Assembly: GCF_900188335.1 (NCBI RefSeq)
Contig: NZ_FZOY01000006.1
Span: 124,001 to 188,000, forward strand
Length of the DNA stretch: 64,000 bases
Reading direction: 5' to 3'
DNA from: Tropicimonas sediminicola
Lineage (GTDB): Bacteria; Pseudomonadota; Alphaproteobacteria; Rhodobacterales; Rhodobacteraceae
Each line of letters starts with the position of its first letter. Within the stretch, counting starts at the first letter, position 1. The notes under the pieces are model-generated. The model saw only the letters and a program-made list of their open reading frames with translations. It had not been told where the DNA came from and searched no databases. Shown piece after piece: positions 42,255-53,559 of the stretch. A program made the position numbers and the translations under genes.

Positions 42255-42331
42255 GGGCCTGTAGCTCAATTGGTTAGAGCAGAGCGCTCATAACGCTTTG
42301 GTTGCGGGTTCAAGTCCTGCCGGGCCTACCA
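42255..42331 (+). tRNA. tRNA with CAU anticodon, probably tRNA-Ile2 (lysidine type)
   Basis: A 77-base cloverleaf ending in an encoded CCA. The acceptor stem is GGGCCTG with CGGGCCT (first pair G-T), the D arm has AGCTCAATTGGTTAGAGC, the anticodon arm is GAGCG-CTCATAA-CGCTT, and the T arm is GCGGGTTCAAGTCCTGC. The anticodon CAT could be elongator Met or Ile2. The pairs C4-G69 and C5-G68 in the acceptor stem are the determinants used by the lysidine-forming enzyme TilS in E. coli, and elongator tRNA-Met lacks them. I therefore favour tRNA-Ile reading AUA, while automatic tools often call it Met. Confidence 0.8.
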
Positions 42332-42509: not shown

Positions 42510-42530
42510 CCACCAGCTGACATTTGGTGG
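42510..42530 (+). promoter_or_regulatory. Inverted repeat over the ribosome-binding site of the PFOR-type gene
   Basis: CCACCA (42510-42515) and TGGTGG (42525-42530) can pair across a nine-base loop. The second arm overlaps the GGTGGAAG ribosome-binding region just before ATG 42536, so pairing would hide it. TTGGTGG occurs three times in the leader (42444, 42483, 42524), roughly 40 bases apart. The remainder of the 204-base gap after the tRNA shows nothing else. Confidence 0.4.
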
Positions 42531-42535
42531 AAGAA

Positions 42536-45500
42536 ATGAAAGACACCGCACAGACCCCCCCGGAGTTTCCGGGCGTATCGACAGTCATTCATGGCAACGG
42601 CGCAATCGCCCAGGTAATGGGCCAGGTCTGTGGAGGGGTGATCGGATATCCGATCACCCCTTCGACTGAGATAGCCGAGCTTTACGAGGCGTTCCGCGCC
42701 GGTGGCGGGATGAACATCTGGGGGCGGCATCCGTTCTTCTTCGAGCCAGAGGGCGAGCATTCGGCGCAATCGGGCGCGCTCGGCGCGGCGCTGACCGGCG
42801 GGCAGTACATCTCCAACGCGTCGTCGAGCCAGGGCATCCTCTACGGGATCGAGTCGCATTACGTGACCGTCGGCAAGAAGGTCGGCGGGTTCGTGCTCCA
42901 GGTCGCCGCACGCTCCGTCTCGCGCCATTCGCTCAACGTGATGGCCGGCCATGACGACGTCTATGCATTGCTGCCCTCCGGCTACACGATCCTGTTCGGC
43001 TCCAACCCGCAGGAGGCCGCCGACCTCGCCGCGATCTCCTACAAGGTCAGCGCGATGTCGATGATCCCGGTCGCCAACGCGATGGACGGCTTCGTCACCA
43101 GCCACATGATGAGCGAGGTGATGATGCCAGAGGACGCGCTGCTCGAGCGGTTCCTCGGCGATCCGACCGACCGTATCCCCTGCCCGACCGTGGCGCAGGA
43201 AATGCTCTATGGCGCCAAGGGCCGCGTCTTCCACCTCAAGCGTTACCTCGGCCGCCACAGCAGCGACATGGAGCAGGCCGACTACGCGGCGCTGATCGAC
43301 TTTCTCGACGCCAATGCCGACGCCGTGGAGGGCGATGCCTCGGGCGAGATGGTCGGCCAGACGCTCGACCGGCTGCCGCAGGAGCTGCATGCCCAGTGGC
43401 GGCGGCAATGGGTCAACGCCCATGCCAAGGGCACCCGGCAGCGGGTTCCGGCCCAGGTGGACGTGCACAACCCCGGCCTCACGGGCGGCGTGCAGAACCA
43501 GCCGGACTTCCAGGCCGGCGCGGTCGACCACCGCACCCACTTCGTCCGCGAGGTGCCGCGTTTCGTCCGCGAGGCGATGGAAGAATACTCGGCCCTGACC
43601 GGGCGCGACTACGCCCCCGTCATGACCTATGAATGCGACGACGCGGAAACCGTCCTCGTCGGGCTCGGCTCCGTCACCGACGACGCCGAGGCTGTGGCCG
43701 CCCACCTGCGCCGCCAGGGCCGCAAGGTCGGCGTGATCTCGATCAAGATGCTCCAGCCCTTCCCCGAGGCCGAGCTGGTGGCGGCCCTTGCCGGCAAGAA
43801 GGCGGTCACGGTGCTGGAACGCTCCGACGTCACCGCGCTGACTAGCCTCGTCAACCAGGCGCTGGTCAAGGCGGTCGAGAATGCCGATGGCGAGCGCTAC
43901 CCGGGCATCCCGGCACTCAGCAAGCTGCCGCGGCTGACCACGGCAATCTTCGGGCTCGGCGCGCACGACCTGCAGCCGCGCCACCTGATCGCGGCCTTCG
44001 ACAACATGGACGAGGCCAACGCGCCCTTCGTCTATCTCGGCAGCCAGTTCTTCGCCAAGGACCCGAGCCCGCAGCTCGCCGAGCTGCAGGACAGGCTGCG
44101 CGCGGCCTATCCCGAAACCGAGCTGATGGCGCTGGAGACCAAGCCCAACCCGCAGCTCCTGCCCGAGGGCGCGCTGCGCATCCGCTTCCACTCCGTCGGC
44201 GGCTACGGCACAATCGCCACCGGCAAGCTGCTGACCGACATCTTGGCCAATGCGCTCAGGCTGCATTCCAAGGCGGCGCCCAAGTACGGCTCCGAGAAGT
44301 CCGGCGCGCCGACCAACTACTACATCACCCTCAGCCCCGAGCCGGTGAAGATCACCAATGCCGATCTCGAGGATGTCGAGGTCGTGGTTTCGCCCGACCA
44401 CCGGGTGTTCCAGCACTCCAACCCGCTGCGCGGGCTGATCGAGGGCGGCACTTTCATTCTGCAGTCGAGCCTCTCGCCGCTCGAGGTCTGGAAGGACCTT
44501 CCGGCCGCGATGCGCGCCTACATCGTCCGCCGCAAGATCCGTTTCTTCGTGCTGGACGGTTTTGCCATCGCCCGCAAGCACGCCCCCTCGGCCGAGCTCG
44601 AGACGCGCATGATGGGCATTGCCTTCATCGGCGCGGTCTGCGGCAACGTGGAGCGCATCACCCAGGGCGCCGACCGCGAGGCCGTGCTGGACAAGATCCG
44701 CAGCCAGATCGCCAAGAAGTTCGGCGCCAAGGGCCAGGCCATCGTCGATGGCAACATGGCGGTGATCCGTGACGGGCTGGAGGCGACGGTGGCGCTCGAC
44801 TACACCGCACCCGAATTCGCCGCGGTGACCGAGGCGGCTGATTCCGAGCCGGCCTTCGCGCCGGCGATCTCGGCCTCGATGTGCCGCATCCAGCAGGACG
44901 CCTCGCCGACCGGCCTCTTCGACCACGAGTATTTCGAGGAAACCGTCGCCCGGCCCTTCCGCGAAGGCACCATCGGCGAGGCGCCGGTGCTGCCGGGGAC
45001 CGGCATGTTCATGCCGTCCGGCACCGCCGCCGCGCGCGACAAGGGCATGTTCCGCCGCGAGGTGCCTGTGTTCGACGCCAGCCTCTGCACCGGCTGTCTC
45101 GAATGCTCCATGGTCTGCCCGGACGCCGCGATCCCGGCCACGGTGATCGACATCGGCGACATGCTGGGCACCGCGCTCAAGGAGATCGACGTACCCTCCG
45201 GCCAGCGCGAGATCCTGCGTGGCCTGCTGCCGGGCATCGGCGCCGCTGTCCGCGCGGCCTATGCCGAGAGCAAGGAGACCAAGGCCTTCGGGATTCTGGT
45301 GGCCGAGGCCGTGCAGTCGCTCGACGTGGAGAGCCCTGTCGTCCGCAACAACCTGGAGAAACTGGCACAGGCGGCTTCCGCCCTGCCCGTCTCCCGCACC
45401 CGGCCCTTCTTCGACGCGATGGAGAAGGAACGCGCCGGCTCCGGCGGGCTGTTCACCGTGGTCGTGGACCCGTGGAAATGCTCCGGCTGCCTCGAATGCA

Positions 45501-47521
45501 TCGAGGTCTGCGGCCCCGGCGCGCTGACCAAGGCCGAACAGGACCAGCCGCTTCTTCAGAAGTTGCAATCCGAGTTCGAGTTCCTGTCGAAGACGCCGAA
45601 CACGCCATCGCGCTTCTTCGACTCCGCCTTCGAGCCCGAGGGCGACATCAAGCGCATCATGCTCGACCGCGATACCTACTATTCGACCACCGGCGGCCAC
45701 GGCGCCTGCCGCGGTTGTGGCGAGGTGACCGCGATCCGGCAGGTCGTCTCGGCCGGTCACGCGCTGCATGACCGCCGCCGCAAGAGCCACACGCGTGAAC
45801 TCGAACAGCTGATCGACGCGCTGCGCGCCAAGCTGGACGAGGTGGCAGAGGATGCCGCCCGCAGCGCCCGCATCGGCTCCGCGATCGACGTGCTCGAAAA
45901 GCGGCTGTTCCTGATGGAGGGCGGGCCGACCGGCAACGGGCCGGCCGCGATGGTGGTGGCCAACGCCACCGGCTGCAGCTCGGTCTACGCCTCGACCTTC
46001 CCCTACAACCCCTACAACGATCCCTGGGTGAACAGCCTGTTCCAGGACGGGCCCGCGCTCAGCAAGGGGATTTTCGAGGGGCTGACGGCCACCGCGGCGG
46101 TCGATTTCAAGGCGCTGCGCGTCGCCAGGCTGGAACTGGCCGACGCCTACGACCCGGCAACCGACGACGCCTATTTCCGCAACTTCGGCTGGAGCGACTT
46201 CGGCCCGGAGGAACGGGCGATCCTGCCGACGGTGCTCAACATCTCGGGCGATGGCGCGGCCTATGACATCGGCTTCGGCGCGCTGTCGCGGCTGCTGGCA
46301 TCAAACACGCCGGTCAAGGTGATGGTGCTCAACTCGGGCGTCTATTCCAACACCGGCGGCCAGACCTCCACCGCCAGCCTGTCCGGGCAGGACAGCGACC
46401 TGAGCCGCTTCGGCCCGGCGCTGGCCGGCAAGCAGGAGGACCGCAAGGAACTCGGCCTGATCGCCGCCTTCCACCCCGGCGTCTTCGTGGTGCAGAGCAC
46501 GACCTCGATGCCCGGCCACTTCCTGAAGAACCTGATCGCCTATCTGGAGCACAGCTCCTCGCCGGCGGTGCTCGACATCTACGCCCCCTGCCAGGCCGAA
46601 CACGGCATCGCCGACTCCGCGGCCAGCCAGCGGGCGCGCCTCGCGGTCGAGGCCCGGGTCAGCCCGGTCTTCGTCCACGACCCCGATGCCGGCGCCTCGC
46701 TCGAGGAACGGTTCTCGCTCGACGGCAACCCGGCGATGGATCGCGACTGGGCGATGACGACGCTGGAATACGTGGAGGACGGTGCGCTCAAGCTGATGGA
46801 CGTGCCGCTCACCCCGGCCAATTTCGCCTTCGAGGAGACCCGTTTCAAGAAGCAGTTCCGCCCGCTGCCGGATGGCGCGGACGCGGTGCCGGTCGAGGCC
46901 TATATCGACCTGCCGCCGGCCGAACGGATCGGCAAGTCGCCCTTCGTCTACGCCACCGACGCCCAGAAGCGGCTGGTGCGGCTGGAGGTGGGCACCACCG
47001 TCGTGCACCTCGTCGAGGAACGCCGCCGCAACTGGCGGACCCTGCAGCACCTTGCCGGGCTCGACGTGGAGCGGCTCGACGCCGACCACCATTCCGAGAT
47101 CGCGGCGCTCCAGCAGCGGTACGATGAGGCCGTGGCGGCGCAGGAAGAGACGATGGACAGCATCGCCCGCGGCATGAGCGAGCTGGCGGCGGCCTCCGGC
47201 GCGCCCGCGGCCATCGGCGCGGCCGGCGCACTGGCGCCTGTCGGCGGCACCTCCGCACCGGCGGCCGCCCCACCCCCGGCGGCGGGCGGATCGGAGATCC
47301 CGCATATCCACGAAGAGGATGTGCCGCTCTGCTCCGACTGCAAGACCTGCTACCAGGAGATCCCCGAGCTCTTCGCGAAGATCAAGATCGTTGTCGACGG
47401 TCAGGCGAAGGAGGTGGCGCACACCATCCCCGGCGCGCTCGAGAAGGTCGAGATGACCGACCAGCTCCGGGCACGGATCGCCAAGGTCGCGGCCAATTGC
47501 GACTCGGAGATCATCCGATGA
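42536..47521 (+). CDS. Giant pyruvate:ferredoxin oxidoreductase-type 2-oxoacid oxidoreductase
   Basis: A 1661-residue single-chain PFOR-type enzyme, larger than NifJ (about 1170). Domain I has GGVIGYPITPSTEIAELYEA and the Arg-containing VLQVAARSVSRHSLNV. The gamma domain follows near residue 540 (IRFHSVGGYGTIATGKLL). A two-cluster ferredoxin domain has CTGCLECSMVCP (about residue 850) and CSGCLECIEVCG (about 981). The thiamine-diphosphate domain has GGHGACRGCGE, NATGCSSVY, GDGAAYDIGFGALS, SNTGGQTS and the last cluster Cys in YAPCQAEHG. After it come about 400 extra residues, an Ala/Pro linker (about 1554-1587) and a CSDCKTCYQ motif. It oxidises a 2-oxoacid with CoA; the acceptor is probably the protein encoded next. 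ATG 42536 is chosen; TTG 42524 is less likely. Confidence 0.85.
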   Translation: MKDTAQTPPEFPGVSTVIHGNGAIAQVMGQVCGGVIGYPITPSTEIAELYEAFRAGGGMNIWGRHPFFFEPEGEHSAQSGALGAALTGGQYISNASSSQGILYGIESHYVTVGKKVGGFVLQVAARSVSRHSLNVMAGHDDVYALLPSGYTILFGSNPQEAADLAAISYKVSAMSMIPVANAMDGFVTSHMMSEVMMPEDALLERFLGDPTDRIPCPTVAQEMLYGAKGRVFHLKRYLGRHSSDMEQADYAALIDFLDANADAVEGDASGEMVGQTLDRLPQELHAQWRRQWVNAHAKGTRQRVPAQVDVHNPGLTGGVQNQPDFQAGAVDHRTHFVREVPRFVREAMEEYSALTGRDYAPVMTYECDDAETVLVGLGSVTDDAEAVAAHLRRQGRKVGVISIKMLQPFPEAELVAALAGKKAVTVLERSDVTALTSLVNQALVKAVENADGERYPGIPALSKLPRLTTAIFGLGAHDLQPRHLIAAFDNMDEANAPFVYLGSQFFAKDPSPQLAELQDRLRAAYPETELMALETKPNPQLLPEGALRIRFHSVGGYGTIATGKLLTDILANALRLHSKAAPKYGSEKSGAPTNYYITLSPEPVKITNADLEDVEVVVSPDHRVFQHSNPLRGLIEGGTFILQSSLSPLEVWKDLPAAMRAYIVRRKIRFFVLDGFAIARKHAPSAELETRMMGIAFIGAVCGNVERITQGADREAVLDKIRSQIAKKFGAKGQAIVDGNMAVIRDGLEATVALDYTAPEFAAVTEAADSEPAFAPAISASMCRIQQDASPTGLFDHEYFEETVARPFREGTIGEAPVLPGTGMFMPSGTAAARDKGMFRREVPVFDASLCTGCLECSMVCPDAAIPATVIDIGDMLGTALKEIDVPSGQREILRGLLPGIGAAVRAAYAESKETKAFGILVAEAVQSLDVESPVVRNNLEKLAQAASALPVSRTRPFFDAMEKERAGSGGLFTVVVDPWKCSGCLECIEVCGPGALTKAEQDQPLLQKLQSEFEFLSKTPNTPSRFFDSAFEPEGDIKRIMLDRDTYYSTTGGHGACRGCGEVTAIRQVVSAGHALHDRRRKSHTRELEQLIDALRAKLDEVAEDAARSARIGSAIDVLEKRLFLMEGGPTGNGPAAMVVANATGCSSVYASTFPYNPYNDPWVNSLFQDGPALSKGIFEGLTATAAVDFKALRVARLELADAYDPATDDAYFRNFGWSDFGPEERAILPTVLNISGDGAAYDIGFGALSRLLASNTPVKVMVLNSGVYSNTGGQTSTASLSGQDSDLSRFGPALAGKQEDRKELGLIAAFHPGVFVVQSTTSMPGHFLKNLIAYLEHSSSPAVLDIYAPCQAEHGIADSAASQRARLAVEARVSPVFVHDPDAGASLEERFSLDGNPAMDRDWAMTTLEYVEDGALKLMDVPLTPANFAFEETRFKKQFRPLPDGADAVPVEAYIDLPPAERIGKSPFVYATDAQKRLVRLEVGTTVVHLVEERRRNWRTLQHLAGLDVERLDADHHSEIAALQQRYDEAVAAQEETMDSIARGMSELAAASGAPAAIGAAGALAPVGGTSAPAAAPPPAAGGSEIPHIHEEDVPLCSDCKTCYQEIPELFAKIKIVVDGQAKEVAHTIPGALEKVEMTDQLRARIAKVAANCDSEIIR

Positions 47522-50277
47522 ACGCGCCCATCGTCGAACCGGGCGACGAGCTGTTCCAGCAGCAGCTCGAAGTCCTCAAGAAGCACCTCGCCGCCGACCC
47601 GCGCTCGCTGCGCAACGTCTTCATCGCCGACGGCACCCAGGCCATCGCCTGGGAGTTCCGCCAGGAGGAGATCGGCGAGAAGTTCATCGGCGTCCTGTGG
47701 AACCTGCTGCTGCGGGGCGATCAGATGAGCACGCTGCTGCAGCGGTTCATCTGGGACCTGCCGCTCAAGTACAAGCGGCGGTTCATCAAGGCGCTCGATA
47801 CCCACCTTTCCGGACGCTACCCGATGTTCAAGGGGCTGTCCGAGGGCTGGCCGGCGGAGAGCTACATCCCGCCCTACGTCCGCGCGCCCGAGGATCGCAG
47901 CGAGGATTTCGAGCTCGTGAACCAGGGGTACCTCGGCTATCGCAGCCTCGGCTACAGCCTGCGCGAGGTCGACCTGATCGTCTGGCTGGAAGCTCTGCGC
48001 GACAAGCAATGCGAGGACCGGCCCTGCGAACTGGGCGTGCTCAAGGAGAAGATCCGCGAGAAGGAGGCGAAGAAGCTCGGCGGCTGCCCGGTCAAGATCC
48101 ACATCCCCGAGATGCTGGACCTGATCGGCAACGGCAAGATCCGGCAGGCGCTGGAACTGATCGAGAGCTGCAACCCGCTGCCCAACGTCACAGGCCGCGT
48201 CTGCCCGCAGGAGCACCAGTGTCAGGGCGTCTGCAAGCACACCAAGCGGCCGATCGAGATCGGGCAGATCGAGTGGTACCTGCCCGAGCACGAAAAGCTC
48301 GCCGATCCCGACCGCCTGAAGCGCCTCGCGGGTCACGTCAGCCCCTGGGCCGTCGCCGCCAAGCCGCCGATCGCGGTCGTGGGCTCCGGCCCCTCGGGCC
48401 TGATCAACGCCTACCTGCTGGCGGCGGAGGGCTTCCCCGTCACCGTCTTCGAGGCGTTCCACGAGCTGGGCGGCGTTCTGCGCTACGGCATCCCGGAATT
48501 CCGCCTGCCCAACACGCTGATCGACGACGTGGTGCAGAAGATCGACGCGCTCGGCGGGCGCTTCGTGAAGAACTTCGTGGTCGGCAAGTCGGCCACGCTC
48601 GACGACCTCAAGGCCGCCGGGTTCTGGAAGATCTTCGTGGGCTCCGGCGCCGGCCTGCCGACCTTCATGAACGTGCCGGGCGAGCACCTGCTCGGCGTCA
48701 TGTCGGCCAACGAGTTCCTGACCCGCGTCAACCTGATGCGCGGGCGCGATCCGGCCTACGAGACGCCCCTGCCCGAGGTCGCCGGCAAGCACGTGCTGAT
48801 CGTCGGCGGCGGCAACACAGCGATGGACGCCGCTCGCACCGCGCGGCGGCTGGGCGGCAAGGTCACCATCGTCTACCGGCGCACCAAGGCCGAGATGCCG
48901 GCTCGGGTGGAAGAGCTGCACCACGCGCTGGAAGAAGGGATCGAGGTCGCCGAGCTGCGGGGGCCGCGCGAATTCGTGGGCGACAGCCACACCCATTTCG
49001 TGACCCACGCCATCGTCGACGTGAACGAGCTGGGCGAGCCCGACGCGTCCGGCCGTCGCCGGCCGGTTCCCACCGGCGAGACCATCGAGATGCCGGCGGA
49101 CCTTGTGATCATGGCGCTCGGCAACAAGTCGAACCCGATCATCCCCGAGTCCGAGCCCGGACTGAAGCTCAGCAAGTGGGGCACGATCGAGGTCGAGACC
49201 GGCAGCCAGGAGACCTCCATCCGCGACGTCTACACCGGCGGCGACGCGGCCCGCGGCGGCTCCACCGCGATCCTCGCGGCGGGCGACGGTCAGGCGGCGG
49301 CGCGCGAGATCGTGGGGGACATCCCCTTCTCGGCCGACGAGATCAGGGAGATGGTCGGCAAGGCCGCCCATTACACCGATCTCGGTCAGGAGCGGCAGTC
49401 CATCACGCGCCACGCCGAGCTTGCCGAGGGCATCGTCGAGATGACGGTGCGGGCGCCGGTGGTGGCCCAGGCCGCGAAGGCCGGGCAGTTCGTCCGGGTG
49501 CTGGCGAGCCAGGACGGCGAGCTGATCCCGCTCACGCTGGCCGACTGGGACGTCGAGGCGGGCACCATCGACCTGGTGATCCAGGGCATGGGCACCTCGA
49601 CCCGGCTGATGAACCGCATGGCGGTGGGCGATGCCTTTGCCGGGATCGCCGGCCCGCTCGGGCGGCCGAGCGCCGTGCACGGCTACGGGCCCGACCAGAC
49701 CGTCGTGTTCACCGCGGGCGGCGTTGGCCTGCCCGCGATCTACCCGATCGCCAAGGCGCATCTGCTGGCCGGAAACCACGTGACGATGATCGTCGGCTTC
49801 CGTTCCGCCGGACACCTGTTCTGGACCGGGGACGACGAGCGCATGGGGCAGCTCAAGGCCCGCTTCGGCGACCAGCTGAAGGTGATCTACACCTCCAACG
49901 ACGGCACCTTCGGGATCAAGGGCTTCGTCACCACGCCGCTCGAGGAAATGCTGAAGGCCGGCGCGTCGTCGAACGGCCGCAAGATCGCCGAAGTGATCTC
50001 GGTCGGCCCGCCGATGATGATGCGCGCGGTCAGCGACCTGACGCAGCCCTATGGCGTGCCCACGGTGGTCAGCCTCAACTCGATCATGGTCGACGCCACC
50101 GGCATGTGCGGCGCCTGCATGGTGCCGGTGGTCGAGGACGGCAAGCAGATCCGGCGCCACGCCTGTATCGACGGGCCGGAATTCGACGCGCATACCGTCG
50201 AATGGGACAAGTTCCTGCCCCGCTTCGGCCAGTTCAAGGCACAGGAAGTGCGCAGCCTCGAGGCGCACGGGCTCTGA
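47518..50277 (+). CDS. Fused NfnB-NfnA type FAD/NADPH oxidoreductase
   Basis: A 919-residue protein of three parts. Residues 1 to about 195 are unlike known domains, with IWDLPLKYKRRFIKALDTHL. Residues about 195-620 are an NfnB/GltD-type unit: CPVKIHIPEML and GRVCPQEHQCQGVC hold [4Fe-4S] clusters, and AVVGSGPSGL and VLIVGGGNTAMDAA bind FAD and NADPH. Residues about 640-919 are an NfnA/PyrK-type reductase: FTAGGVGLPAIYPIA, SVGPPMMMRAVSDL and a [2Fe-2S] site GMCGACMVPV...HACIDGPEFD. In anaerobes these are two subunits of an NADH-dependent ferredoxin:NADP oxidoreductase. Its start overlaps the PFOR stop (ATGA), so a single complex is likely. Confidence 0.85.
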   Translation: MNAPIVEPGDELFQQQLEVLKKHLAADPRSLRNVFIADGTQAIAWEFRQEEIGEKFIGVLWNLLLRGDQMSTLLQRFIWDLPLKYKRRFIKALDTHLSGRYPMFKGLSEGWPAESYIPPYVRAPEDRSEDFELVNQGYLGYRSLGYSLREVDLIVWLEALRDKQCEDRPCELGVLKEKIREKEAKKLGGCPVKIHIPEMLDLIGNGKIRQALELIESCNPLPNVTGRVCPQEHQCQGVCKHTKRPIEIGQIEWYLPEHEKLADPDRLKRLAGHVSPWAVAAKPPIAVVGSGPSGLINAYLLAAEGFPVTVFEAFHELGGVLRYGIPEFRLPNTLIDDVVQKIDALGGRFVKNFVVGKSATLDDLKAAGFWKIFVGSGAGLPTFMNVPGEHLLGVMSANEFLTRVNLMRGRDPAYETPLPEVAGKHVLIVGGGNTAMDAARTARRLGGKVTIVYRRTKAEMPARVEELHHALEEGIEVAELRGPREFVGDSHTHFVTHAIVDVNELGEPDASGRRRPVPTGETIEMPADLVIMALGNKSNPIIPESEPGLKLSKWGTIEVETGSQETSIRDVYTGGDAARGGSTAILAAGDGQAAAREIVGDIPFSADEIREMVGKAAHYTDLGQERQSITRHAELAEGIVEMTVRAPVVAQAAKAGQFVRVLASQDGELIPLTLADWDVEAGTIDLVIQGMGTSTRLMNRMAVGDAFAGIAGPLGRPSAVHGYGPDQTVVFTAGGVGLPAIYPIAKAHLLAGNHVTMIVGFRSAGHLFWTGDDERMGQLKARFGDQLKVIYTSNDGTFGIKGFVTTPLEEMLKAGASSNGRKIAEVISVGPPMMMRAVSDLTQPYGVPTVVSLNSIMVDATGMCGACMVPVVEDGKQIRRHACIDGPEFDAHTVEWDKFLPRFGQFKAQEVRSLEAHGL

Positions 50278-50322: not shown

Positions 50323-50994
50323 TCAGGAAGCAGCCAGTGCCGCCTTTGCGAATACCTGGGTGGCGACTGCAGCGAAGAACAGGATGCTGCCGGCAAGCAC
50401 GAAGACGTGCCAGATCGTGTTGTGGAACACCATGCGGTCGCGCAGGTGGAAGACCACGCCCAGCGTATAGGTGATGCCCCCCGCGGCCATCAGGGCCACG
50501 ACCGGGCCCGGGAGCGCCTCCAGCATCGGACGCCCGGCAAAGACCGCCGCCCAGCCCATGCCGAGATAGAGCACCAGCGAGAGCCAGCGGAACCGCCCCG
50601 GCGCGAGGAACTTGAGGGCTGAGCCGAAGGTCGCCGTGCCCCAGAGGCCGGCCATCAGACCGACCGGCTGGCTCCCGGTCAACATGAGAAACGGCGTGTA
50701 GGTGCCTGCGATCTTGACGTAAATCCCGGTATGATCGAGCCGCCTGAGCAGCCCGGTCCAGCGCGCGCTTTCGATCATGTTGTAGAGCGCCGAGAAGGTC
50801 AGCATGACGATCAGCGCCGCGCCGTAGATGCTGACTCCGACGATCGCCGCACGGTCGAGCTCCAGCAGGACGGTCGCCCCGATCAGCATCGGCACCACGA
50901 TCACCGCAAGCCCGATGCCGACGACATGGACGACGCCGTCGCTGATGCGTTCGGCGCGGCTGTAGGCCGGACGGATGGTCGAGGCTGGTAGCAT
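50323..50994 (-). CDS. TrhA/hemolysin III-family membrane protein
   Basis: A 223-residue seven-helix membrane protein of the hemolysin III/YqfA/PAQR-like family. Marks are AERISDGVVHVVGIGLAV with a helix-1 His, FSALYNMIESARWTGLLRRL with DHTGIY, and the C-terminal FHNTIWHVFVLAGS with the conserved HxxxH-like pair. Family members regulate membrane energetics; 'haemolysin' is a historical name. ATG 50994 is taken; an earlier in-frame ATG exists at 51030. Confidence 0.88.
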   Translation of the reverse strand: MLPASTIRPAYSRAERISDGVVHVVGIGLAVIVVPMLIGATVLLELDRAAIVGVSIYGAALIVMLTFSALYNMIESARWTGLLRRLDHTGIYVKIAGTYTPFLMLTGSQPVGLMAGLWGTATFGSALKFLAPGRFRWLSLVLYLGMGWAAVFAGRPMLEALPGPVVALMAAGGITYTLGVVFHLRDRMVFHNTIWHVFVLAGSILFFAAVATQVFAKAALAAS

Positions 50995-51234
50995 GTCTCG
51001 AAGGGTACGGATGCGGCGGCCACCTGGCAATGCCGCAGCCGGCCTGCAGAGCCGACCTCACGGGATTGGGATTGACCTGCATGGCGACGAGGCGGGCTAA
51101 GCTTCCCTGCCATGGGTGCAGATGACGCTCCCGCCGCATTATACCGGTTTTCCGGATTGTCTTTCCCGATCTCGCCCGTTTTTCCCGCCAGGACGGGAAG
51201 TTATCTCGGCTCCAGTACCAGACAGGAGCCGCAG

Positions 51235-51502: not shown

Positions 51503-52171
51503 ATGACCATCCACATCACCGATTTCGCCCGCAAGCGCCACACCGCCAAGGCTTATGCGCCGGACCGCCGGATCTCCGACGAGGACATGGAACAGGTGCG
51601 CGAACTGCTGCGCTTCTCCCCCTCCTCGACGAACCTGCAGCCCTGGCACTTCGTCATCGCCTCCACGCCCGAGGGCAAGGAGCGCGTCGCGCGATCGGCG
51701 GCGGAGAAATACCCGTTCAACCTGCCCGCGATCCGCAACGCCTCGCATGTCGTTGTTTTCGCGAGCCGTATCGAGGCCGACGAGGACTACCTTCTGCGCG
51801 TCCTGGCGCAGGAAGAGGCCGACGGCCGGTTTGCCGGCAACCCCGAAGAGTTCAAGCCCGCGATGCACAAGGGCCGCTCGATGTTCGTCGACATCCACCA
51901 GAAGCAACTCGACGACGGTGCCGAATGGATGGCGCGCCAGGTCTACATCAACCTCGGCCAGTTCCTGCTCGGCGTGGCGGCGCTCGGCATCGATGCGACC
52001 CCGATGGAAGGTGTCGACACCGACGTGCTCGACGCGGAATTCGGTTTGAAGGAAATGGGTTACCAGAGCCTCTTCGTGGTGCCGATCGGCTATTCCGACC
52101 CGGAAGGCGACTACAACGGCGCCCTGCCCAAGTCCCGCCTGACCTATGGAGACATCCTCACCGAGGTCTGA
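51503..52171 (+). CDS. NfsB-type oxygen-insensitive NAD(P)H nitroreductase
   Basis: A 222-residue flavoprotein of the nitroreductase family. RKRHTAKAYAPDRRISDED, LRFSPSSTNLQPWHFVIAST and AEWMARQVYINLGQFLLGVA are the FMN-binding and dimer blocks of NfsB/dihydropteridine reductase. The protein ends DYNGALPKSRLTYGDILTEV. It reduces nitroaromatics and quinones in two-electron steps. ATG 51503 has AAGACAGGACAG upstream. Confidence 0.9.
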   Translation: MTIHITDFARKRHTAKAYAPDRRISDEDMEQVRELLRFSPSSTNLQPWHFVIASTPEGKERVARSAAEKYPFNLPAIRNASHVVVFASRIEADEDYLLRVLAQEEADGRFAGNPEEFKPAMHKGRSMFVDIHQKQLDDGAEWMARQVYINLGQFLLGVAALGIDATPMEGVDTDVLDAEFGLKEMGYQSLFVVPIGYSDPEGDYNGALPKSRLTYGDILTEV

Positions 52172-52228: not shown

Positions 52229-53251
52229 TCAGCCACCAGGCCGCTCCGCCACCGGCGGGCCTGCAGTGTCGCGGACGATCAGCTCGGCCGAGATCTCGGA
52301 AACGGTCGGCGGCGTGCTCGGATCCTTGATCCGTTGCAACAGCACCCGCGCCAGCACCCGGCCGAGTTTTTTCGGCGAGACCGCCATCGTCGTCAGCGCC
52401 GGCGTGGCGACCGCCGCATCTTCGATGTCATCGAAGCCGACCACCGACACGTCGTGCCCCGGCCGCAGCCCTTCGCGCGCCAGGCCGAGGCATGCGCCGA
52501 GCGCGACCATGTCTCCATTGCACACGACTGCCGTGATCGCGGGATGCGCGCGCAAAAGCTCCGAAATGGCCTCCCGAGCAGCCTTTTTCGTGTCGGCCGA
52601 GGGCCAGACGATCACCGGCCCGAGCCCGCGCTCCTGCATCGTTCGCTCATAACCGGTAATCCGTTCCTGCCGGACATAGGTCATGTCGGTGCCACCGAGG
52701 TAGGCGATATGCCGATGCCCGAGATCGGCGAGGTAGCCGGTTGCGATGGCCGTGGCTTCGGCGTTGCGGATGCCCACATGATCGAGCTCCCGGCTCGCCG
52801 GACGCAGGAAGGTCACGGTCGGGACGGCATGAGCGGTGAGCAGGTCGAGCGTCCGCTCCGAGGTCGCCAGCGCCGGCACCCAGAGCAGCCCACCACGGCG
52901 GTTTCGGATGAAGGCCTCCAGCTGCCGGCCCTGGCGTTCGGCATCGTCGCGGGTATCGAGGATGGAGACGAGATACCCCTCCTCTTCCAGCAAATCGACG
53001 GCGCCGCTCACGACCTCCGCGTTGAACGGGTTGGCGAACTGGTTGATGACGAACCCGATCTCCCGGCTCTGGCCGGAGCGCATGGCCGCGGCGCGGGCAT
53101 CCGGAACGTAGTGGAGCTTCTTGGCCGCCTGCAGGACCTTCTTGCGGGTCTTTTCCGAGATCCGCCCGGTGCCGCGCATCACCTGGCTCACGGTGGGAAT
53201 GGAGACACCCGCCTCCTTGGCCACGGTTTCGAGGGTCGGCTTGTTCGCCAT
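52229..53251 (-). CDS. LacI-family transcriptional regulator
   Basis: A 340-residue regulator. The helix-turn-helix is PTLETVAKEAGVSIPTVSQV, with the hinge KKLHYVPDARAAAMRSG. The periplasmic-binding-like sensor follows (FANPFNAEVVSGAVDLLEEE, VVGFDDIEDAAVATPALTTM). It is divergent from the sugar ABC operon and the intergenic region holds two similar operator-like palindromes. It probably represses that operon until its ligand binds. ATG 53251 is set by the family start; the frame is open further upstream. Confidence 0.93.
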   Translation of the reverse strand: MANKPTLETVAKEAGVSIPTVSQVMRGTGRISEKTRKKVLQAAKKLHYVPDARAAAMRSGQSREIGFVINQFANPFNAEVVSGAVDLLEEEGYLVSILDTRDDAERQGRQLEAFIRNRRGGLLWVPALATSERTLDLLTAHAVPTVTFLRPASRELDHVGIRNAEATAIATGYLADLGHRHIAYLGGTDMTYVRQERITGYERTMQERGLGPVIVWPSADTKKAAREAISELLRAHPAITAVVCNGDMVALGACLGLAREGLRPGHDVSVVGFDDIEDAAVATPALTTMAVSPKKLGRVLARVLLQRIKDPSTPPTVSEISAELIVRDTAGPPVAERPGG

Positions 53252-53265
53252 GATGCAGCAGCCTT

Positions 53266-53281
53266 GATATAACGTTTCATC
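53266..53281. promoter_or_regulatory. Candidate LacI operator 1
   Basis: GATATAACGTTTCATC. Around the central AACGTT the halves GATATAAC and GATGAAAC agree at six of eight positions. It lies 15 bases upstream of the LacI start, where it could give autoregulation. Confidence 0.6.
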
Positions 53282-53384
53282 GGAAAATCTATCTTCTGAC
53301 CCATTTTCTGACAAGTCCACTCGGTCGGTTCGTTGCGATTCCAATAATTCTGCGCCGCAGCGACGAAGAGAATCATTGACCGGA

Positions 53385-53400
53385 GATATAACGTTGTAGC
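53385..53400. promoter_or_regulatory. Candidate LacI operator 2 in the sugar operon promoter
   Basis: GATATAACGTTGTAGC. It repeats the left eleven bases of operator 1 (GATATAACGTT) exactly, 119 bases away. TTGACC at 53376-53381 and TAGCAT at 53397-53402 flank it like a -35 and -10 (spacer 15), so a bound repressor would cover the promoter. The transcript leader to the binding-protein gene would be about 150 bases. Confidence 0.6.
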
Positions 53401-53559
53401 ATCGTGACGCCATCCGCACGGGGATCAGGCATCCGTCCATGCGCGATGCCCCGTCTCGCGGGGTGACGCAACGGGCCCGCCCAGACGAGAAACCCCGCCA
53501 GAAGGATCGGCAGCCGGAAGGAGGTCCGGCCGTCGCACAATGGAATTCGGGAGGAATAC

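Follow-up and report, generated by a model that had tools for sequence, protein, structure and literature searches.

A long PFOR-type oxidoreductase with a putative ferredoxin arm, encoded next to a fused Nfn in Tropicimonas sediminicola

The gene pair and its domains

The window analyzed here is a stretch of 64,000 nucleotides of Tropicimonas sediminicola DNA (assembly GCF_900188335.1, contig NZ_FZOY01000006.1, positions 124,001 to 188,000), and its positions are numbered from the first letter. Two genes on the + strand are the subject of this study: one encodes a long PFOR-type 2-oxoacid oxidoreductase of 1661 aa (42536-47521), and the other encodes a fused Nfn flavoprotein of 919 aa in which the large half is followed by the small half (47518-50277). 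The PFOR stop and the Nfn start codon share the bases ATGA, a 4-base overlap. The PFOR gene starts at ATG 42536, and an in-frame TTG at 42524 is a possible alternative start. The initial annotation, made from the letters of the sequence, had described two overlapping genes for these products, and the open reading frames (ORFs) together with the family and structure matches confirmed them.

The PFOR assignment was based on Pfam, curated models, solved structures and alignment. The protein matched POR_N, PFOR_II, POR, Fer4 and TPP_enzyme_C as well as solved PFOR structures (best E 8.8e-82), and the domain set of the NifJ type (POR_N, PFOR_II, POR, two CxxCxxC..C motifs, TPP_C) was present. Its score against TIGR02176, the classical NifJ model, was 396 bits, under half of the 911-bit cut-off. 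By sequence the window PFOR is thus PFOR-like and belongs to a separate long subfamily, not to NifJ proper. When 49 PFORs, all picked for carrying the tail cysteine motif described below, were aligned, the 12 core cluster cysteines, T41, E72, R126, D1239, G1240 and N1272 were invariant. E70 was kept in 45 and E72 in all 49, and the Glu that serves thiamine diphosphate (ThDP) was left unassigned between them. The N-terminal ThDP domain (POR_N; 42623-43150, from Pfam and alignments) includes T41 and R126, which align with Moorella T29 and R112, residues presumably involved in pyruvate binding. A POR gamma-like domain (domain III) was located at 44177-44782 by Pfam and curated models. The putative [4Fe-4S] ligands, each conserved in 49/49 PFORs, form the motifs C851-C854-C857-C861 (45086-45118) and C982-C985-C988-C992 (45479-45511), and those of the third cluster (C1058, C1061, C1147, C1352; 45707-46591) surround the second ThDP domain (GDG 1238-1240, N1272). 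Two inserts distinguish the core from the classical enzyme. Residues 227-300 (43214-43435), found by alignment and without a Pfam match, were present in the six Nfn-type PFORs aligned and absent from four deeper relatives, and are a possible docking part. The second insert, around residues 879-954, lies between the first two cluster motifs in the structure alignment.

The likeness of the window PFOR to the Moorella enzyme ends at residue 1413. According to alignment and a predicted model, the remainder seems to consist of an extension (about residues 1414-1550; 46775-47185) that ends in a long helix, a disordered linker of about 33 residues (1554-1586; 47195-47293) with a predicted local distance difference test score (pLDDT) below 50, and a ferredoxin-like domain of about 75 residues with four cysteines (C1599-x2-C1602-x2-C1605 ... 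C1655; 47294-47518), which would be carried on a flexible arm. The model covers the C-terminal part of the PFOR (557 residues, mean pLDDT 77.5), in which the ferredoxin-like domain was modelled at pLDDT of about 63-82 per ten residues. A Foldseek search with this whole part returned PFOR cores. A profile built from 31 window-type tails matched the solved ferredoxin 7m1o (2.5e-5), and the match spanned all four cysteines; these are present in 49/49 PFORs, in rows selected for that motif. The tail was absent from two PFORs of NifJ length, one annotated as nifJ (L148) and one unannotated (L149). The last 400 residues had been regarded initially as atypical and as a possible docking part. The atypical end is real, with a length of about 250 residues as judged from the Moorella alignment, which stops at 1413; the idea of a contact part is refined in that, by the model and the profile match, the protein ends in a ferredoxin-like domain preceded by the flexible linker.

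The second protein matched NF009415/PRK12779 over nearly its full length (1705 bits, cut-off 1519) and also the solved Nfn chains of P. furiosus and T. maritima. Its model had a mean pLDDT of 80.8, falling below 50 in the cluster region 165-193, and aligned in fold with NfnI-L from residue 109 and with NfnI-S from residue 625. Both halves with their FAD/NAD(P) folds are present: Pfam, structure matches and the model located the GltD-like large-half domain for flavin adenine dinucleotide (FAD) and NADP(H) at 48361-49317, and the latter two located the FNR-like small-half domain, which holds FAD and NAD(H) in known Nfn, at 49390-50079. The alignment placed the region of two putative [4Fe-4S] clusters (D162, C165, C170, C190, C229, C235, C239) at 48001-48234 and the [2Fe-2S] motif (D859-x4-C864-x2-C867...C883) at 50092-50166; these Fe-S positions were invariant across 39 Nfns, with the Asp-Cys3 motif kept in 39/39. 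The first Cys of the CxxCxxxxC motif in the large half is replaced by Asp162 in 39/39 Nfns, whereas it is Cys in 3/3 classical NfnL aligned. By likeness to dihydropyrimidine dehydrogenase, we take this position to belong to the outer cluster. From the sequence, Asp162 is itself a possible cluster ligand. The part of PMC6405883 consulted gives the vicinity of the distal cluster as the predicted docking site of ferredoxin on Nfn, and Asp162 may thus lie at the point reached by the tethered ferredoxin. The N-terminal 108 residues or so (47518-47841) are helical in the model, lie outside the aligned Nfn folds and are another possible docking part. An atypical N-terminus had been noted before, but for about 195 residues; only about 1-108 qualify, since the NfnL fold aligns from 109. 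The folds of the PFOR tail and of the Nfn N-terminus may, either of them, be known already.

Co-occurrence of the PFOR and the fused Nfn

Named sequences were scanned with the PFOR only, and the best 80 of at least 573 relatives were analyzed. Two of these loci were of the Rnf type (L136, L137), 11 had a contig end inside the PFOR, one (L129) had no single ORF, and 66 held the PFOR stop. A fused Nfn lay directly downstream in 60 of the 66 Nfn-type loci, namely 58 recognized by ORF and two (L072, L123) in which the PFOR frame was broken and the tail lay in another frame; the L072 tail lacks the last Cys, where the sequence has an N. In 44 of the 58 loci recognized by ORF, a 4-base overlap joins the PFOR stop to a start codon in frame with the Nfn. 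The six loci without Nfn comprised L110, L068, whose contig stops 278 bases further on, and four whose PFORs lack the tail: L076 and L114 (Pleomorphomonas), L082 (a Rhodospirillum bin) and L128 (Mobiluncus mulieris). No Nfn was found in the 5.5-10 kb of sequence downstream of these four PFORs, part of which is masked in L128. When the whole genomes of the tail-less hosts were searched for Nfn, three gave no match and that of L082 gave only a partial match of 387 bits, under the cut-off. Tail and Nfn are therefore missing together in 4/4 tail-less loci, two of them from one genus, and M. curtisii (L092) has both the tailed PFOR and the Nfn. The association is expressed as counts, the loci being related.

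Among 398 Pseudomonadota genomes, the PFOR query at 1e-100 matched 11, and NF009415 was over its cut-off in nine, which are the own genome of the window and eight of one genus. All nine had an adjacent Nfn-type PFOR on the same contig, and the remaining two PFOR-positive genomes (G662, G745) were of the Rnf type. By genus this co-occurrence amounts to two independent cases, and its breadth derives from the scan of named sequences. In a draw of 396 Actinomycetota genomes NF009415 was found only in the centre genome of the draw, so that the pairing in this phylum is documented entirely by loci of the named scan. The long PFOR was present in 7/8 congeners (81-83% identity) and in 0/27 other genomes of the family, each of a different genus, where two weak matches (E 1e-25 or weaker) were to other enzymes. 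Only the own genome passed E 1e-100 for PFOR in an even class draw of 385 genomes, yet other Alphaproteobacteria with the long PFOR appeared in the named scan, which indicates that the gene is patchy. Viral contigs gave no match.

To see what else accompanies the pair, neighbours were clustered in 39 loci (467 ORFs) that were less than 80% identical to each other. No family spanned more than six of the 39 loci besides the flavoprotein cluster, which also holds other flavoproteins; since the loci had been chosen for holding both genes, what can be learned here is limited to the lack of a third family. Comparison with seven congeners and Aliiruegeria over 20-25 kb each showed no match at 1e-30 to any other window gene of at least 120 aa, save one of 43% over 199 residues. 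The lack of a third conserved neighbour indicates a two-gene unit. The distance matrices of PFOR and Nfn correlated with r 0.90 (49 pairs). In a PFOR tree made by a quick method, Actinomycetes, Alphaproteobacteria and Betaproteobacteria each fell on one side of a branch, and Gammaproteobacteria needed three changes. That the tree follows the classes suggests an old association rather than a recent joint spread, with some transfer possible. Three observations thus support the coupling of the two proteins proposed in the initial annotation: the genes co-occur, their order is kept, and loci without the tail also lack the Nfn. Wide separation of the genes in relatives would have spoken against it; no such case was found, and L110 has the PFOR without an Nfn.

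A possible electron relay and its alternatives

These results suggest that the pair probably works as one electron-transfer unit, a self-contained relay from pyruvate through the PFOR and its tethered ferredoxin to the Nfn. The PFOR would carry out the CoA-dependent oxidation of a 2-oxoacid, most likely pyruvate, and the electrons would pass its three [4Fe-4S] clusters, if these are bound as the ligands predict, to the ferredoxin-like domain on its own C-terminal arm. The flexible arm could then move to the [4Fe-4S] end of the fused Nfn within a complex of the two proteins, and the Nfn would join the low-potential electrons with those of NADH to reduce NADP+ (confurcation). The net reaction would be pyruvate + CoA + NADH + 2 NADP+ -> acetyl-CoA + CO2 + NAD+ + 2 NADPH. 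Oxidation of pyruvate by ferredoxin is downhill. As the Nfn reaction is given as -20 kJ/mol towards NADPH in the consulted part of PMC6405883, the sum of the two steps favours NADPH. A 2-oxoacid:NADP system, one of the functions offered initially, is the best reading of the sequences. Our guess for the reason of a tethered carrier is exposure to oxygen.

Several observations weigh against this relay. The window tail alone had no Pfam match (E up to 5), and the profiles of window-type tails and of the tails of deeper relatives matched weakly (hhalign probability 37%, E 3.7e-4). The scan of the best 80 relatives favours close relatives. The four tail-less loci represent at most three independent cases, two being from Pleomorphomonas, and the sequence downstream of L128 is partly masked. 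L110 keeps the tail without an adjacent Nfn and without an NF009415 match in its genome, which is a bin and perhaps incomplete. Asp162 marks the Nfn as differing from those studied, so that bifurcation is not to be assumed, and P. furiosus NfnII shows NAD-independent activity according to the consulted part of PMC6405883.

The last two points also favour a relay of the same layout in which the Nfn half acts simply as a ferredoxin:NADP+ reductase, without bifurcation or use of NADH, given that Asp162 replaces the cluster Cys in 39/39 Nfns and that NfnII is a relative. However, the small half has kept its fold and an intact Asp-Cys3 [2Fe-2S] motif in 39/39 and would be superfluous for a plain NADP reductase; we consider this unlikely, though it deserves serious attention. 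The electron path could also be unchanged and start from another 2-oxoacid. The PFOR score lies far under the NifJ cut-off and the own genome has two further 2-oxoacid oxidoreductase sets, as would suit such a substrate, but T41 and R126 are kept in 49/49 PFORs and the core aligns with the two PFORs of NifJ length, which makes another substrate rather improbable. The initial annotation had cautioned that the substrate may not be pyruvate; T41 and R126 make pyruvate likelier than that implied.

Running of the preferred relay in reverse, with NADPH bifurcated to NAD+ and the tethered ferredoxin to drive pyruvate synthesis from acetyl-CoA and CO2, would be in line with the general reversibility in principle of both reactions and with the phototrophs that, judging from their names, occur among the hosts of the named scan. 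The energetics of both steps given above run the other way, and several hosts (Cellulomonas, Propionibacteriaceae, Mobiluncus) are fermenters, so we give this direction little credence. We are similarly sceptical that the two genes are merely a co-inherited cassette whose enzymes act separately with soluble ferredoxins. The pair lies in differing surroundings among congeners, its distribution is patchy, and L110 has the tail without the Nfn, all of which a cassette would explain; against this, the two genes are present or absent together across phyla, the Nfn is missing where the tail is missing, and the PFOR tree follows the classes, which argues against a recent transfer of both genes as the chief cause. 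Separately, a general role in feeding nitrogenase was considered and appeared unlikely, because nifH was over its cut-off in 4/14 genomes searched and was not found in the own genome.

Known systems, surroundings and deeper relatives

The window PFOR shares with the NifJ type (TIGR02176; D. africanus, M. thermoacetica) the domain order, the ThDP motifs, the POR domains and the three [4Fe-4S] motifs. It differs in the extra inserts, the C-terminal extension, the linker and the ferredoxin-like domain, and exceeds the PFORs used for comparison, of 1171-1231 aa and of 1178 and 1203 aa, by 430-490 residues. Pyruvate:NADP+ oxidoreductase of Euglena is a PFOR fused to a P450-reductase-like flavoprotein and coupled to NADP+ reduction. 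The coupling of PFOR to NADP+ would be alike here, whereas two proteins and an Nfn take the place of the fusion. Both folds and the cofactor regions of the window Nfn are common to NfnAB/NfnSL of T. maritima and P. furiosus; these consist of two chains, whereas the window Nfn is one chain with an extra N-terminus of about 108 residues and, relative to three NfnL from fetched genomes, with Asp for the first Cys of the [4Fe-4S] motif.

The Nfn half is already known, as Pattern C (Liang 2019, PMC6405883) and as NF009415/PRK12779, with which it shares the fusion, an additional length of about 200 aa and the C-terminal position of the small half. M. curtisii, the representative species of Pattern C in PMC6405883, has a locus in the present set (L092), and its Nfn is described as the earliest-branching Nfn in the consulted parts of PMC6085437 and PMC6405883. 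The portion of PMC6405883 consulted gives the sequence pattern and distribution of Pattern C and calls fused forms uncharacterized; neither a partner nor a tethered ferredoxin is discussed there, nor is Asp162. The legend of its Fig. 2 names PFOR among nfn neighbours, and some record of the arrangement may thus exist. The initial statement that no description was known accordingly does not apply to the fused Nfn, but it stands for the pair, of which no account was found in the open-access literature; nor was one found there of a PFOR-borne ferredoxin arm or of a partner of Pattern C Nfn (figures were outside the scope). AadN of R. palustris is likewise a fused Nfn in an alphaproteobacterium, but it is of Pattern B and is proposed to serve benzoyl-CoA reductase rather than PFOR, as far as the consulted part of PMC9973337 goes. 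If the proposed relay is true, it gives Pattern C Nfn a partner and a job, and adds a bacterial route from pyruvate to NADPH in relatives of Accumulibacter, Tetrasphaera, Cellulomonas, Vibrio and Rhodopseudomonas, among others. For engineering, the pair could serve as a two-gene module, and it is also a case in nature on which tethered and free ferredoxin could be compared.

In the window, purM is the gene upstream of the pair, and a tRNA-Met (CAT) lies at 42255-42331, upstream of the PFOR gene. Genes of the TrhA family (50323-51030, -), for an oxygen-insensitive nitroreductase (51503-52171, +) and for a LacI-type regulator (52229-53440, -) follow downstream; none of these three was beside the pair in the congener loci compared, and purM is on a different contig from the pair in genome G001. 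A tRNA-linked integration was rejected because 8/10 related loci scanned had no tRNA and in the other two it was thousands of bases away. In the window, a CRP/FNR-like inverted site precedes the PFOR start by 45 bases; it was not evident in the congener alignment, and a reading in terms of regulation was dropped. A simple scan upstream of the window pair found no sigma-70-like promoter. The own genome (5.17 Mb) encodes the E1 alpha subunit of pyruvate dehydrogenase (PDH) over cut-off, in agreement with the earlier remark that the group is thought to use PDH, and the PFOR is thus an addition to PDH. A survey of 13 genomes for the heterodimeric E1 type only found it over cut-off in six; it was not used for any conclusion.

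Deeper PFOR relatives, 37-39% identical to the window PFOR, sit beside rnf genes. RnfC was over its cut-off beside the PFOR in L040, rnf genes were found in L136 and L137 by tblastn with Persicobacter/L040 Rnf queries, and those in L031 (a Persicobacter megaplasmid) and L039 were recognized by ORF reading. The genomes of L136 and L137 had no NF009415 match at 1e-100. These relatives appear from their sequences to carry a clearer single-cluster ferredoxin at the C-terminus: the L040 tail matched Fer4_13, and a profile that combined six long-PFOR tails with three of the degenerate halves described below, nine in all, resembled ferredoxin I. Window-type and Rnf-type tails occupy the same place in the alignment. 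A PFOR copy on a Gemmatirosa plasmid adjoins an OAFO alpha subunit. The Rnf-type clusters also contain a gene for about 290 aa (L136:10857-11723, L137:19447-20343), of which the L136 copy resembles ferredoxin--NADP reductase, under the curated cut-off.

A second 2-oxoacid set lies beside a split Nfn in the own genome, outside the window but on the same contig, C29 (L054, G000:C29:86001-106000), and in L056 and L057. OAFO alpha was detected in L054 and a KorB-like beta subunit in L056 (by eye in L057). A protein in these three loci (ORFs of 729-955 aa) resembles a degenerate C-terminal PFOR half in which, by eye, the GDG motif is gone; it carries an Rnf-type ferredoxin tail and may be a ferredoxin adaptor. 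We tentatively raise, at somewhat less than even confidence, a more general principle of a private ferredoxin, by which a lineage of 2-oxoacid oxidoreductases would have acquired a ferredoxin arm and would exchange the enzyme served by that arm: Rnf, Pattern C Nfn or a third set-up, found in the same genome as the window, of a degenerate half-PFOR with ferredoxin tail, a KorAB-type enzyme and a split Nfn. By avoiding free ferredoxin, this would let facultative or oxygen-exposed bacteria make NADPH via PFOR. A third 2-oxoacid set (L053, G000:C9:214001-233900) contains a PorA-like protein of 389 aa and a PRK12771/PorD-like flavoprotein of 615 aa, with beta and gamma parts matched nearby. In L148, on a plasmid of Phenylobacterium zucineum typed as conjugative, nifJ is flanked by one gene for an NAD(P)-binding protein and another for a protein resembling dihydroorotate dehydrogenase.
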